Below, one piece after another: positions 2,578 through 13,793 of a stretch of 64,000 nt of DNA (position 1 is the stretch's first letter; the number at the start of each line of letters is the position of its first letter). The DNA comes from Bdellovibrio bacteriovorus. Its GTDB lineage: Bacteria > Bdellovibrionota > Bdellovibrionia > Bdellovibrionales > Bdellovibrionaceae. The stretch spans positions 254,738 to 318,737 of the forward strand of contig NZ_LUKE01000006.1 in assembly GCF_001592735.1 (NCBI RefSeq), in the 5' to 3' direction. The notes beneath the pieces were generated by a model. That model was not told the origin of the DNA, ran no database searches, and saw only the letters and a program-made list of their open reading frames with translations. The position numbers and the translations under genes are program-made.

Positions 2578-4347
2578 ATGTCTTTTAATTATAGTAAGAA
2601 TAAGGAACATGCGTCCAACGACAGCTTCTGGACATCATATTCCGACTTATTCCTTGGATTAAGTTGCATCTTTCTATTGCTTTACGTGACCTCCTCTTTG
2701 CGCGCGGGGACGGATGGTCTGCGCACTCAAATAGAAAATGAAAAGCTTTCGATGAAAGTGGAAGAGATGGAAAACCAACTCAAAATGTATGAGTCGGTAA
2801 AAAACGAATACATGCAACAACAAGCTTCTAAAAGCGAAGTGCAAGAATACGAAGAGCTGATGGATAAGCTCACTTTGCTTCAAGAAGACGCGAAATCAGA
2901 AAAAGAGAAGTTGTTGATGCAGGCTTCGGAAAACGAAGCGAAAGTCAAAGCATTGAACAAATACCAGCAAATGGTTCGTAACGTTTTAAACTCAAACAAG
3001 ATGGCTAAGACTAAAATTGCCACTCGTGAAGACTTCATCGCTGAACAAGATGTGGAGATCGACGTTAAAGAAGGCCAAATCAACACGCTTAACAAAGACA
3101 TCAAAAATAAAGAGCAGTTGATTGCGCAAGGTGAAGCCCGTATTGCCCAAACGGAAAAAGCTTTGGACAAACACGTGAAAGACCTGCGCATGGCTTATAA
3201 AGCCAATAAGCTTTCTAAAAAAGCTTACGAAGCTAAAATGGCGCAGGCCAAAGCCGAAAGCCAGGCGAAGTTGGATCAGCTGCGTAATATGAATTCCCAA
3301 TACGAAAACCAGATCCAATCGGCGACACGCCAGTTAGGGCAGGTGCAAAGCGAGCTTGCCAATACTCAAGCTCATCTAGAAAACACCAAAGGGACTTTAT
3401 CTAAAACCCAAGGGGCTTTGGCTTCAACCCAAGGTCTGTTGAAACAAAAAGAAGGCGAAGTGGTTGGCCTAAGTGGCCAATTGGCTAGCACTAAGGGAGC
3501 GTTGGGGCAGACGCAAGGAGAATTGGCCGCCACTCGAGGACGCTTGCAACAAAAAGAAGGTGAAGTCGAGGGTCTCAGTGGTGAGCTTGCCAGCACCAAA
3601 GGTGCTTTAGGGCAAACGGTGGGAGAGTTGCAAGCCACCAAAGGTCGACTTCAGCAAAAAGAAGGTGAGCTTCAAGGCATGGGCGGAAAGCTTGCGGGCT
3701 TAGCCGCGGAAAAAGCCGCTTTGGCCGGAAAACTTAATAGCACCCAAGGTGAGTTAGCAAAAGCAAAAGCAGAAATCGAAGCACGTAAGCAAGTGGCCCA
3801 CGAAATTCAAAAAGGTTTTGCGAAGGCCGGGGTTAAAGCCGACATTGATTTACAAACGGGCGACGTGGTTCTGGATTTTGGTCAAACTTACTTTGACAGT
3901 GACTCGGATCGCTTAAAACGCGAAATGAAGTCGGTCTTAGAAAAAGCGATGCCAGTGTATTCAAAATCACTTTTTGGTAATCCAAAAATTTCAGATAAAG
4001 TTTCCGCGGTGGAAATCATTGGTTTTGCATCGCCCACTTATCAAGGTCGTTTCGTAGATCCGCACAGTTCTAAAGCGGAAGATAAAGCGGCATTAAAATA
4101 CAACATGGATCTGAGCTACCGCCGTGCGAACTCGATCTTTAGTTATCTATTAGATGAAAAACAAAGCGGGAGCTTCGACCATCAACGCGAATTGTTGGCT
4201 TTGATGAAAGTTTCGGGACGAAGCTTCTTAGAAGTGATGAAAGTACAAAATCGCAACATTGCGACGGCAGCCGAATTCTGTAAGCAGAACGACTGTAAAA
4301 AAGCGCAACGTGTGATTATCCGATTTAGCATGGATCAAAAGAAATAA
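2578..4347 (+). CDS. MotB/OmpA-like inner-membrane protein with a long repeated coiled coil
   Basis: About 589 aa if started at the ATG at 2578, which follows an AGGTGG-type site; an upstream in-frame ATG at 2545 lacks one. A short cytoplasmic N-terminus and one membrane segment (~residues 23-41, LGLSCIFLLLYV) resemble MotB/ZorB-type stator proteins. Next comes a very long coiled coil (~60-410) ending in glycine-punctuated 35-aa repeats (QKEGEV...LSG.LASTKGALGQT). The C-terminal ~170 residues read as an OmpA/MotB-like peptidoglycan-binding domain (VVLDFGQTYFDSDSD; FASPTYQGRFVDP; LSYRRANSIF, where the arginine matches the wall-binding motif). It heads a tight unit with a MotA/TolQ-like and an FHA protein, 12 and 3 bases apart. 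It is probably an ion-driven or structural envelope complex. It is not a flagellar MotB, whose linker is far shorter. Confidence 0.78.
   Translation: MSFNYSKNKEHASNDSFWTSYSDLFLGLSCIFLLLYVTSSLRAGTDGLRTQIENEKLSMKVEEMENQLKMYESVKNEYMQQQASKSEVQEYEELMDKLTLLQEDAKSEKEKLLMQASENEAKVKALNKYQQMVRNVLNSNKMAKTKIATREDFIAEQDVEIDVKEGQINTLNKDIKNKEQLIAQGEARIAQTEKALDKHVKDLRMAYKANKLSKKAYEAKMAQAKAESQAKLDQLRNMNSQYENQIQSATRQLGQVQSELANTQAHLENTKGTLSKTQGALASTQGLLKQKEGEVVGLSGQLASTKGALGQTQGELAATRGRLQQKEGEVEGLSGELASTKGALGQTVGELQATKGRLQQKEGELQGMGGKLAGLAAEKAALAGKLNSTQGELAKAKAEIEARKQVAHEIQKGFAKAGVKADIDLQTGDVVLDFGQTYFDSDSDRLKREMKSVLEKAMPVYSKSLFGNPKISDKVSAVEIIGFASPTYQGRFVDPHSSKAEDKAALKYNMDLSYRRANSIFSYLLDEKQSGSFDHQRELLALMKVSGRSFLEVMKVQNRNIATAAEFCKQNDCKKAQRVIIRFSMDQKK
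3442..3690 (+). repeat. Tandem 105-bp (35-aa) coding repeats in the MotB-like gene
   Basis: Units start at 3442, 3547 and 3652, exactly 105 bases apart. The first two carry the same QKEGEV...LSG...LASTKGALGQT pattern and the third decays after ~13 codons. Weaker heptad-like relatives (TQGAL, TQGLL) precede them. The repeat sets the length of the periplasmic coiled coil. Confidence 0.85.
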
Positions 4348-4359
4348 AAGAGGTGGGAT

Positions 4360-5262
4360 GTGACAACTAAAGCTTTGGCAGAATATTTTGTAGTAACGCT
4401 GCCTTACATAATGTTAAGCGTGTTTTGCTTTGGCCTTTTCTTCCGCTCAATCATTTATTATACGGTTCGCCGTCATGAATGGTTCGCGAAAGAATTCGAA
4501 AAACGAGTGAATCGTTTTATCGATGCCGAAGTACCAGGCAAAGTGCAAGATGTGTCTTTTTATTCGCTTTCAAAAAAGCTTTTAGAAAGAACCTATTACG
4601 AAGTATTTGAAATTCGTGATCGCATGAAGCGTCGTCGCCCCGACAATATCATGTCGGCCAGCGATCGCTTTTTCTTGGTGCGCCAAGGTTGTGCGTGGTT
4701 GGTGAAAGACATTCTTAAACAAGTCAAATTCCTTAAATGGAATGACAACAATCCGAAGCTTTTGAATATCACCAAAGCAACATTGCAACATAATCCTTGT
4801 TTCAATCGCGTGTTCGGTGTGATTCCGATGGTGGGGATGAATGACCTGATTTCTATATTGCCGGGTCTTTTCGTTGTCGCGGGGATCTTGGGTACCTTTA
4901 TTGGTATCGCGGGCGGTCTTGAAGGTTTAGGAACAATGAACTTGCAAGATCTTGAAGGCAGCAAAAATATCATGGACCGTTTCCTTCATGAAATCTCGTT
5001 TGCGATGAAGTCTTCAATCATCGGTATTATCTTTTCTTTAGCATCACATGTATTCAACGTGATCCTTTCACCAGAGCGTTCTTATGTGTCGATGGTAGAT
5101 CGCTTTGAAAGTGCTTTAGATTTATTATGGTATCGCAGTGACAATAACAACTATCCTGCTAACGAGCGTCCGTTTGACGAACACCGTGATGCAGTCGAAG
5201 CCTTGGCGGAAGATTCTTTGAATAAAGAAATCAGCAAAACGCCGGTGGCGCGAGGAGCGTAG
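4360..5262 (+). CDS. MotA/TolQ/ExbB-like proton-channel family membrane protein
   Basis: The 300-aa protein starts at a GTG preceded by AGAGGTGGG; the ATG two bases upstream runs straight into a stop. Membrane segments lie at ~9-32, ~162-187 and ~217-237. The second contains LPGLFVVAGILGTFIGIAGGL, the hallmark of MotA/TolQ/ExbB helices that line the ion path. The third (SSIIGIIFSLASHVFNVIL) corresponds to the other channel helix. The large cytoplasmic segment between TM1 and TM2 is basic and alpha-helical, with repeated RR and KR pairs. In the family such proteins form pentamers around a dimer of a MotB/ExbD-like partner, here the preceding gene. The C-terminus is cytoplasmic and acidic. It is not the flagellar MotA, which has four membrane segments and flagellar neighbours. 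Confidence 0.82.
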   Translation: MTTKALAEYFVVTLPYIMLSVFCFGLFFRSIIYYTVRRHEWFAKEFEKRVNRFIDAEVPGKVQDVSFYSLSKKLLERTYYEVFEIRDRMKRRRPDNIMSASDRFFLVRQGCAWLVKDILKQVKFLKWNDNNPKLLNITKATLQHNPCFNRVFGVIPMVGMNDLISILPGLFVVAGILGTFIGIAGGLEGLGTMNLQDLEGSKNIMDRFLHEISFAMKSSIIGIIFSLASHVFNVILSPERSYVSMVDRFESALDLLWYRSDNNNYPANERPFDEHRDAVEALAEDSLNKEISKTPVARGA

Positions 5263-5265
5263 AGT

Positions 5266-7629
5266 TTGAGTCATTTTAAGATCGCCATTCAGCGCAAGGA
5301 CCAGGCGCTCAGCCGAGAGGTGAACAGAGATTCGTTCACCATCGGCCGTTCTGTCGATTGCGACATTACGCTGAATGACAATCACGTCAGCCGGGTGCAT
5401 CTTGTGGTCACCCGTCGCTGGAATCAGATTTGGATTGAAGATAAAAATTCCTCTAACGGGACTTTTATCAACGGGACACGTATTGTCCAAGGCTCTCCCG
5501 TCAATGTGGTGGGGAGTGATAAGATTCAATTTGGTAAGTCCGAATACATCCTGCACATTGATATCGAGCACCCGCTTCCTGCCGAAGAACCGGTGATTGA
5601 ATCTCCTGCCGCACCTGTTTACGAAGACGAAGATGCCGAGATCGCGGAAACTGTGGCTATGCCCGCTCCACATTTTGCGCAATCTGTGCCTGCATCTGCT
5701 TCACCAGCGGCCCAAGCCGCGGCTCAGAATTCATTCCAAGCCGAAAAGCTTTTGCACGATGCTAAACGTCGGGCTGCGCAAATCGTGCTTGAAGGTGAAA
5801 CTCAAGCTGAAAAACGCGTTCAAGCCATCTATCAAAAAGCCCGTGAAGCGCAAGCTCAAGCGGAAGCCTTTTACCAAACACGTTTAAGCGAGGCCCATAA
5901 AGAGGCCGACGCTATTTTGGCGGACTTCCAAAATCAGGGTCGCGAGCTTTTGCAAAGCGCACGCAACATGGCTCAAGAGCTGCGTGAAGAAGTCGACGTC
6001 TATGTCCAAGGCTTGCGCGAAAAGGCTCGCCAAGATGCAGAAAACCTGATCGCGGAAAGCACTCTTGAAGGTGAAAAACAAAAGGCGGAGGCTCTCCGTC
6101 AAGCCCGAGAAACGGCTGAATACGAAGGCCGCATGTTGATGGAAACCTCGCGTGAAGAGGTCAACCGTGTCTTAGAATTCACCCGTCTGCAGGTTCAAGA
6201 AGTGCAAGGCAAGCTTGAAGCGGGTCAAGTGAACTTGGAATACGTTCAAAAAAACTTAGCCGACACCGAAGACCGCTTAAAACATGCGGTCGAAGAGCTA
6301 GAAAAAAACAATCAAGCGAATTTGGATCTTCAGCAGGAAATGGCGATTTTGCGCCAGACTGAAGAAGAAAAACTTAAAGCATCGCTAGAGGCTGAAGAAA
6401 CGCGGGTGAAAACGTGGGCCGAACAAGAAGAAACGCGTGTCAAAACCCTTGTTGATTCCGAAGAATCGCGAATCAAAACGTGGGTGGCCGATGAAGAAAA
6501 TAAATTAAAACAGAAGATCGAGGCGGAGGAAGTTCGCTTAAAGAACTTTATCCAAGTCGAAGAAGAAAATCTCGCAAAATTGCAGGCCGCTAACAAGGAC
6601 CTTGAAGGCAATAAAGAGCTTTTAGAAAAAGCGGTCCGAGTCTTAGCGCAAAAGCAGGCAGAGCTTTCTATGGATGTGAACGGGATTGAATCCCGTAAAG
6701 ATCATTTATTTAAAGAATACGAATCACAAAAAGTTTTTTTAAATGAAAAGTTAGAAAAAGATAAGTCTCAGATGGCAAAATCGGAGGAGCAACGCTTAGA
6801 GGAAATGCGTGTCGAAACCTCCAAACGTCTAAAGAAATTAGAGCAAGATCTCATCGAAGATGTGATCCGCCGTAAGGAAAGCATCGTGAAAGAGCTTTTC
6901 AATGTGGTGGAAAAAGAAGTCGTGCGCCATATGCAAGCTCCTCAATGGAGAGAAATTTCTAAAGAGCTTGAATTTAAGATGATGGATGCCTTAGAAGGTA
7001 AGGTGGCAAATATCTCGCAAAATACGGCGACCATGGCGCAGCCTCAGGATTTAATGAAGCGTCGTAAAAAAGAAAAATTGCAGTGGGCATTTTCAGGTGT
7101 TGCGGCCGGTTTAGCTTTATTTTTTGTCGTTCAAGTCGCTTATCAAAAAGTCATCTCTGATAACACGCCGATGCAAACTCTTGTGCAGCGTGAAGTGCAA
7201 AGTCGAAAAGATGATCTTGAGCGTCGTCGCTTCAACCCCCCTCAAAGCGAAGAGCTTAAAGAAACGTACACCGACGCTGTCATTTACACACGCAACTTTC
7301 CAGAAGTATACGCAGATCAAGAATTTCAACAAAAGCTCTATAAAAGTGTGTCGCAATACATGTATAAGACTTGGCGTGTAGAAGAAGAAAAATCCATCCA
7401 GGTTTTGGCGGCCTCAAAAGCGATTGTTAAAGAGCTGCAAGATCGTCGCGGACAAATTCATCCGGACTTCGTGAAAGAAGGCATTCAAAAAATGCGTGAT
7501 CTTGAACTTGAGAGCTTAGAGCGCATGAAAACGATCTTAGGAACCGAAGTTCGTGTGGACTCCTACCGCCGCTTCGAAAGAAATTTCTATAAAGAAGAAA
7601 TGCAGCGCCGTCGCATGGCCAGCCATTGA
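5266..7629 (+). CDS. FHA-domain protein with long coiled coil and a C-terminal membrane anchor
   Basis: The 787-aa protein starts at a TTG after GGAGCG, three bases past the TolQ-like gene. Residues 1-95 are a classic forkhead-associated domain, with GRS (27-29), SRVH (42-45) and SSNGT (62-66), the phosphothreonine-binding residues. An Ala/Pro/Glu linker follows, then a charged coiled coil (~150-590) containing ATP-synthase-b-like Ala/Glu/Gln heptads and short repeats of EETRVKTW type. A single membrane segment (~605-625, GVAAGLALFFVVQVAY) separates it from a ~160-aa charged, probably periplasmic, tail. The layout suggests a cytoplasmic phospho-sensor tethered by a stalk to the MotA/MotB-like complex. 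Neither a kinase nor a known partner is present in the unit. Confidence 0.82.
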   Translation: MSHFKIAIQRKDQALSREVNRDSFTIGRSVDCDITLNDNHVSRVHLVVTRRWNQIWIEDKNSSNGTFINGTRIVQGSPVNVVGSDKIQFGKSEYILHIDIEHPLPAEEPVIESPAAPVYEDEDAEIAETVAMPAPHFAQSVPASASPAAQAAAQNSFQAEKLLHDAKRRAAQIVLEGETQAEKRVQAIYQKAREAQAQAEAFYQTRLSEAHKEADAILADFQNQGRELLQSARNMAQELREEVDVYVQGLREKARQDAENLIAESTLEGEKQKAEALRQARETAEYEGRMLMETSREEVNRVLEFTRLQVQEVQGKLEAGQVNLEYVQKNLADTEDRLKHAVEELEKNNQANLDLQQEMAILRQTEEEKLKASLEAEETRVKTWAEQEETRVKTLVDSEESRIKTWVADEENKLKQKIEAEEVRLKNFIQVEEENLAKLQAANKDLEGNKELLEKAVRVLAQKQAELSMDVNGIESRKDHLFKEYESQKVFLNEKLEKDKSQMAKSEEQRLEEMRVETSKRLKKLEQDLIEDVIRRKESIVKELFNVVEKEVVRHMQAPQWREISKELEFKMMDALEGKVANISQNTATMAQPQDLMKRRKKEKLQWAFSGVAAGLALFFVVQVAYQKVISDNTPMQTLVQREVQSRKDDLERRRFNPPQSEELKETYTDAVIYTRNFPEVYADQEFQQKLYKSVSQYMYKTWRVEEEKSIQVLAASKAIVKELQDRRGQIHPDFVKEGIQKMRDLELESLERMKTILGTEVRVDSYRRFERNFYKEEMQRRRMASH

Positions 7630-13027: not shown

Positions 13028-13720
13028 CTATTTCGGGCGAAGCTTTGCGGTTTCGTCCACGATATTCTGGATTTTGTCGGAACGATAAGTGTGCCTGCCG
13101 GGATGGAAGTCCAAGATCGCAATCGTCATGGCTTTCGCGATAGTCGTCGCTTCAATCGCTCGGTATTTTTTTAAAGGCCCCACAAGCAGTGGATTTAGGA
13201 GTGGTGATAATTTCTGGGCGAAGGCTTCACCGGAACGATGTTCCTTTCTGTCTCCCAAAATCAAAGAAGGCTGAAAGATTTCAATTTGCGGAATATTCAG
13301 AGCTTTCAGGTCGCGCTCCATTTCACCTTTGGTTCGGTTGTAAAAGATGCTGGAATTTGCATCGGCGCCCATCGCCGAAACCACTAAGAATTTTTTTGCG
13401 CCCACTTTTTCTGCCACGCGGGCAAAGCTCATGACGTACTCATAATCCACTTTGCGAAAGGCCTCTTGGGATCCGGCGGTTTTGATCGTGGTGCCCAGGC
13501 AGCACACGAAAACTTCAGCCTTTAAGGCGTCCACCTGTCCTTCCATCTGATCTAAGTTCATTACAATATTTTCGGTGCGCGCAGGGATTTTCCCCAAGGG
13601 ACGGCGAGTGACGGCTTTGATATTTTTCACCTCTGCGATTTGCGAAAGGATGGAAAGAAGCTCGCCGCCGACAAGGCCGGTGGCACCAATAAGTGTGATA
13701 GTGGTTGGATAGGTCATCAT
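13028..13720 (-). CDS. NAD(P)-binding Rossmann oxidoreductase (atypical SDR, HTATIP2/NmrA-like)
   Basis: About 230 aa. The N-terminus has the dinucleotide-binding GATGLVGG motif right after a beta strand (TITLIG). The rest follows the NAD(P)H-binding NmrA/HTATIP2 layout: VFVCCLGTTIKTAGS after strand 4, KVDYEYV, KFLVVSAMGAD, then YNRTKGEMER corresponding to the YxxxK pair, and PSLILGDR. These cytoplasmic proteins are dehydrogenases or redox sensors and the substrate is not predictable. I take the ATG-ATG at 13720; the frame also opens at a TTG at 13756, but neither has a strong ribosome site. It converges with ftsY, 3 bases apart. Confidence 0.82.
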   Translation of the reverse strand: MMTYPTTITLIGATGLVGGELLSILSQIAEVKNIKAVTRRPLGKIPARTENIVMNLDQMEGQVDALKAEVFVCCLGTTIKTAGSQEAFRKVDYEYVMSFARVAEKVGAKKFLVVSAMGADANSSIFYNRTKGEMERDLKALNIPQIEIFQPSLILGDRKEHRSGEAFAQKLSPLLNPLLVGPLKKYRAIEATTIAKAMTIAILDFHPGRHTYRSDKIQNIVDETAKLRPK

Positions 13721-13793
13721 GGAGGGAATTGTCCCATGTCGTTTATATTCAGGCAAGGGAAGGCTTTGAACGGCTCAAGTGACGATATGGGGC

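Follow-up and report, generated by a model that had tools for sequence, protein, structure and literature searches.

The question raised by this locus is what kind of machine is encoded by three tightly packed genes in a genome of the genus Bdellovibrio, and to which known system, if any, they belong. Flagella, gliding, nutrient uptake, the upkeep of the outer membrane and phage defence all run on ion-driven motors of one superfamily, of which few classes are known. The window analysed here is a stretch of 64,000 nucleotides that starts about 200 bases after the end of smc, and an earlier note on it had proposed, at positions 2578-7629, a three-gene unit consisting of a MotB-like subunit (B), a MotA/TolQ-like subunit (A) and a membrane-anchored protein with an FHA domain. 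The ORF reading places all three genes there on the + strand in the order B-A-FHA, separated by 12 and 3 bases, and the same order recurs in dozens of relatives. The types of part were also borne out, namely two motor-type subunits, a coil and an OmpA-like end in B, and a membrane anchor in the FHA protein.

The A subunit (300 aa, GTG start, 4360..5262, + strand) was characterized by its ORF, ZorA models, fold and conserved residues. It adopts the ZorA/TolQ/ExbB fold, with T179 in a GTF motif and S219 in the last membrane helix, and these two residues are invariant in every covering row, including A subunits that have no third protein and those of the sister group described below. Its match to PF01618 is weak (E=0.016, 15.4 bits against a cut-off of 22.9) and was missed by the whole-genome Pfam search; the ZorA models match at 5e-11, and in the PDB the profile of A picks up hardly anything but ZorA chains (best 2.9e-8). 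The structure model (mean pLDDT 81) is closest in fold to ZorA (Z 12.7 over 199 residues, 3.6 Å), ExbB (12.0) and TolQ (11.3), and reaches Z 7.6 with a sodium-driven stator; since helical bundles by themselves can reach Z near 13, the fold match alone is not decisive, and the assignment rests on coverage, on top rows that all belong to the family, and on the sequence profile. The C-terminal region (residues about 235-292, 5062..5235, + strand) is short: the chain ends about 60 residues past the last membrane helix, just after a predicted helix at 278-292, and carries a DxxEALAE motif, FDEHRDAVEALAE. Most relatives have A lengths of 288-375 aa, with one outlier of 819 aa (L115). In most of the loci compared, the chain of A terminates in small residues (-RGA, -KAS, -KAA, -KVA), and so do the cyclic-nucleotide-binding proteins of the sister group.

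The B subunit (589 aa, 2578..4347, + strand) was characterized by its ORF, Pfam and ZorB1 models, conserved residues and periodicity. Its mechanical ORF opens at TTG 2545, but the conserved start, MSFNY, lies at 2578. A short cytoplasmic N-terminus is followed by one membrane helix, a heptad coil at residues 45-410 and an OmpA/ZorB-like periplasmic end at about 418-589. The membrane helix carries the conserved W18-S22-D23-L24, and the acidic residue that the earlier note had suggested looking for there is present as D23, invariant in every covering row of the FHA type, the A-only type and the cyclic-nucleotide type alike. The coil has a heptad power of 3.05 at period 3.5 (the maximum of 2000 shuffles was 1.32), is free of proline and contains a tandem repeat of 105 bp (35 residues, 2.2 copies, window 3439-3668); at about 365 residues it would exceed the depth of the periplasm if straight. 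With regard to family, B matches ZorB1 at E=1e-27 and the PDB ZorB chains at 1.4e-5 and 3.1e-5, while PF00691 (OmpA, E=0.0012) and PF13677 (MotB_plug, 16.6 bits, cut-off 24) remain under their cut-offs; the profile searches gave OmpA, MotB_plug and ZorB, and ExbD was absent from the matches with E up to 1. In the OmpA-like end an NxxLSxxR motif is kept (L512, S513, R516), and the loop that usually reads GHTD reads GFASPT, with the usual aspartate and histidine missing. Judged from the sequence, this end would bind the cell wall. C568 and C573 are invariant in all covering rows, which suggests that the two residues form a disulphide.

The third gene (787 aa, TTG start, 5266..7629, + strand; ORF, Pfam and conservation in relatives) encodes an FHA domain at residues 25-90, a long cytoplasmic segment, a positive patch (KRRKKEK) and a membrane helix at about 607-625, after which comes a helical domain in the periplasm. 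The FHA domain scores 62.5 bits, well over the Pfam cut-off, and PF16697, a YscD-type FHA-like domain, is also over its cut-off. The protein had been described as having a stalk and an anchor: the anchor stands as the membrane helix, and the heptad signal of the cytoplasmic segment is weak (p 0.044). The phospho-binding residues R28, S42, H45 and N64 are all retained in 39 of 49 relatives; one branch (L041, L042, L103-L106) has lost them, as have a few single rows. Because the protein is kept in those lineages, reading phosphothreonine is not its sole job. Its membrane and periplasmic part (7048..7626, + strand; structure model and conservation in relatives) is conserved even where the FHA residues are gone, and the 193 aa model of this part is all helical with a mean pLDDT of 92. 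The window copy of the C-domain has no Pfam match, and the PDB gave no convincing one (none at E below 1 with Foldseek, none above Z 6.4 with VIA), which does not prove a new fold. Two kinases are over the Pfam cut-off in this genome, and no kinase gene was seen adjoining the trio.

Two side observations concern these domains. Extra copies of the C-domain occur in frames of 481-550 aa (G051:C10:18920-19477, G253:C1:190944-191444, G251:C50:5495-6022, G252:C133:22748-23305), and no A was found in G251 and G252. Two further places in this genome (G000:C1:1816583-1824468 and 2123918-2126706) have FHA domains at most a few kb from a MotA/ExbB gene; these are possibly Agl/Glt-type clusters, which occur in Bdellovibrio too (PMC3169522).

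Across the Bdellovibrionota, the three genes are kept, gained and lost together. The earlier note had proposed a profile search for a conserved trio, and such a trio was found across many families with order and tight spacing kept: B-A-FHA holds in 33 regions and four named records, with mostly short gaps and A identities from 86% to 48% (in a few of these regions a longer antisense ORF or a contig end hides one gene), and it recurs in further families of the phylum. In L075 and L076, where A is at about 39%, only B-A is present. Of 369 genomes, which are related to one another, 128 have both A (counted at E at or below 1e-42) and the FHA C-domain, 16 have only A, 5 have only the C-domain and 220 have neither. 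One of the 16 A-alone genomes (G161) has a full-length A near a contig end, and in the others the A matches are distant or stop before the C-terminal motif. One locus (L113, G357:C306:1-12000) has its B gene split into ORFs of 410 and 170 aa, by a frameshift or a sequencing error.

In much of the genus Bdellovibrio the trio sits between smc and ftsY, and in close relatives at this site A identity is about 85% and FtsY identity about 77%. In G017, of the same genus, smc, a nitroreductase-like gene and Rrf2 are followed by MCP and ftsY, the trio being absent from this interval, and in G025 smc adjoins ftsY directly. In the trio regions taken from outside the genus, none of the window's flanking genes that were compared (Rrf2, nitroreductase-like, FtsY and the gene at 13028-13756) is present, save for a single weak match to MCP. 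Against the unit, the earlier note had set the case that neighbouring genomes keep the genes apart; this is seen only in G007, where the FHA gene itself is cut. There a rearrangement cuts it near codon 43 (L050 8537-9945 and L145 6382-8457), so that its 5' end stays behind A and the remainder lies 0.9 Mb off with the usual downstream genes, which could be a misassembly. Chance or artefactual adjacency is ruled out by the recurrence, the co-occurrence, the joint absence in G017 and the changing flanks. When 84,980 species genomes were scanned with a sequence pattern, only four loci of relatives came up; a plasmid- or virus-borne system is ruled out by searches of 72,556 plasmids and of viral contigs, neither of which gave a match.

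The third position is not always held by an FHA protein. In seven loci of a distant sister group (L133-L139, the seven looked at among 34 genomes in its E-value band), B-A is followed by a protein of 146-160 aa, and PF00027, a cyclic-nucleotide-binding domain, is over the cut-off in all three of those tested; B of this group reaches 1036 aa. Some lineages retain A and B without a third protein. The A C-terminus changes with the partner: A subunits that have an FHA partner show an EALA-type motif after D[PA], and those of the A-only and cyclic-nucleotide types lack it; variants in L109 and L074 and chance matches in L115 and L137 were judged by eye. Confined as it is to A subunits with an FHA partner, this motif is a candidate docking site for the FHA protein. 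The A tree, which is unrooted and has long branches, recovers the sister group as one clade (100/100); the FHA group also forms a single clade, though its support is moderate (72/92), and the A-only rows require two changes. Since the link between motif and partner follows this tree, it may reflect just one or two events. Based on the presence of a cyclic-nucleotide-binding protein in the third place of the sister group, the most fitting view of the third gene is that it encodes a cytoplasmic gate which can be exchanged.

From the results presented above, we lean, with slightly better than even confidence, towards an ion-driven, wall-engaging motor with cytoplasmic gating by exchangeable sensor modules. 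Together, A and B would make up a rotary motor in the membrane, one of the MotA/TolQ/ExbB/ZorA class and probably of A5B2 stoichiometry, in which protons would pass B D23 and A T179/S219. At the tip of its long coil, B would engage peptidoglycan with the OmpA-like end, and the motor would therefore work on the wall or read its position. The FHA protein would dock on the C-terminal motif of A, while its membrane helix and periplasmic domain would dock on the outer side of the motor, and its FHA domain may couple the state of the motor to threonine phosphorylation. In the sister group, the small cyclic-nucleotide-binding protein would fill the position of the gate. The broader claim, that Bdellovibrionota have a new class of wall-engaging rotary motor with plug-in gates (an FHA membrane protein in one group, a cyclic-nucleotide-binding protein in another), so that a motor of ZorAB type that does not serve phage defence is switched by phosphorylation or by a cyclic nucleotide, is put forward tentatively, and we regard it as possible with doubt prevailing.

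The third protein may be placed on the other side of the motor, as its output and not its gate, taking up the force of A/B through the membrane helix in the manner of GltG, TolA and TonB and delivering it to the periplasmic domain or, via the cytoplasmic segment, to a structure in the cytoplasm, for instance the MreB cytoskeleton or a polar complex. In Myxococcus the proposed force transducer is GltG, a membrane protein with an FHA domain that binds AglR (PMC3169522), and lineages that have lost FHA residues still keep the membrane and periplasmic part, which fits such a role. However, about 160 residues past the helix look too short to reach the outer membrane, no TonB-type end is present, the sister group has a soluble protein in this place and some lineages do without any third protein, and we hold this reading to be unlikely. 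A static wall tether or tension sensor is a still poorer prospect: A and B would keep the fold without rotating, and the third proteins would report the state of the wall. The long coil and OmpA-like end would suit a gauge, and the FHA and cyclic-nucleotide domains are signalling domains, but strict conservation of the ion-path residues is unexpected for a tether without ion flow.

Least probable of all, and in our view very unlikely, is a divergent anti-phage system, that is, a Zorya relative with an FHA protein in place of the effectors. By both profile and structure, the closest families are ZorA and ZorB, and the distribution in Bdellovibrionota is patchy; yet A has no ZorA tail, the site between smc and ftsY is fixed in much of the genus with A more conserved than FtsY, and the plasmid and viral searches were empty. 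Nor was a nuclease or helicase of the kind that serves as a Zorya effector noticed beside the trio, where the flanks were read as ORFs and Rrf2 and MCP were named.

The description of the trio as undescribed is consistent with the literature searched, in which no paper on it was found. In G006, which we take to be HD100, the end of SMC lies about 6.4 kb upstream of the trio. SMC is Bd1158 in HD100 (PMC11318664), and an array paper lists Bd1167, "coiled-coil crescentin like", as down-regulated at 30 min of predation (PMC2797640). Given its position and the two coil-bearing genes in that stretch, Bd1167 is probably the B or the FHA gene; it is not named in the main text of the Bdellovibrio Tn-seq paper. 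If this assignment is right, it would correct the "crescentin-like" cytoskeletal reading of one component. If the gated motor is real, it offers a natural comparison of one motor core under different signals, FHA and cyclic-nucleotide protein, in a phylum-wide class whose group includes invasive bacterial predators.

In comparison with known systems, the trio combines features of several. Like flagellar MotA/MotB, it has a membrane aspartate and an OmpA-like end in B, but it is under the MotB_plug and MotA_ExbB cut-offs and its fold match to the sodium-driven stator is weaker. With ExbB/ExbD and TolQ/TolR it shares the fold of A (Z 11-12), whereas its B is OmpA-like with a long coil and not ExbD/TolR-like, and A is under the PF01618 cut-off; membership as a flagellar, Tol or Exb pair is ruled out by the profile cut-offs. 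AglRQS-Glt is likewise a superfamily motor that works with an FHA membrane protein, GltG, but the FHA protein of the trio matches GltG only at residues 15-196 (45 bits against a cut-off of 650) and has no TonB end, and the trio is three genes at a separate locus in place of a large cluster. The injectisome inner-ring protein YscD/PrgH resembles the FHA protein in its FHA-like cytoplasmic domain (PF16697) and single membrane helix and differs in the C-domain, which in the trio is all helical without a Pfam match, and no secretion genes were noticed beside it. Zorya requires a long cytoplasmic ZorA tail, and its aspartate D24, which matches B D23, is crucial there (PMC11890865). The trio is like ZorAB (types I and II; PDB 8qyd, 8vvn, 8vvi) in A (best profile 5e-11, fold Z 12.7) and like ZorB in the membrane aspartate and OmpA-like end; unlike Zorya, it has no long A tail, a coil of about 365 residues in B, an FHA or cyclic-nucleotide third gene, and B before A. 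The view that gene order and FHA partner depart from standard flagellar, Tol, Exb and Zorya operons holds. In both sequence and fold the trio comes closest to ZorA and ZorB, but it is not Zorya, since the curated ZorA/ZorB cut-offs are far off (scores of 42, 38 and 22.7 bits where 500, 100 and 400 are required) and A lacks the long tail.
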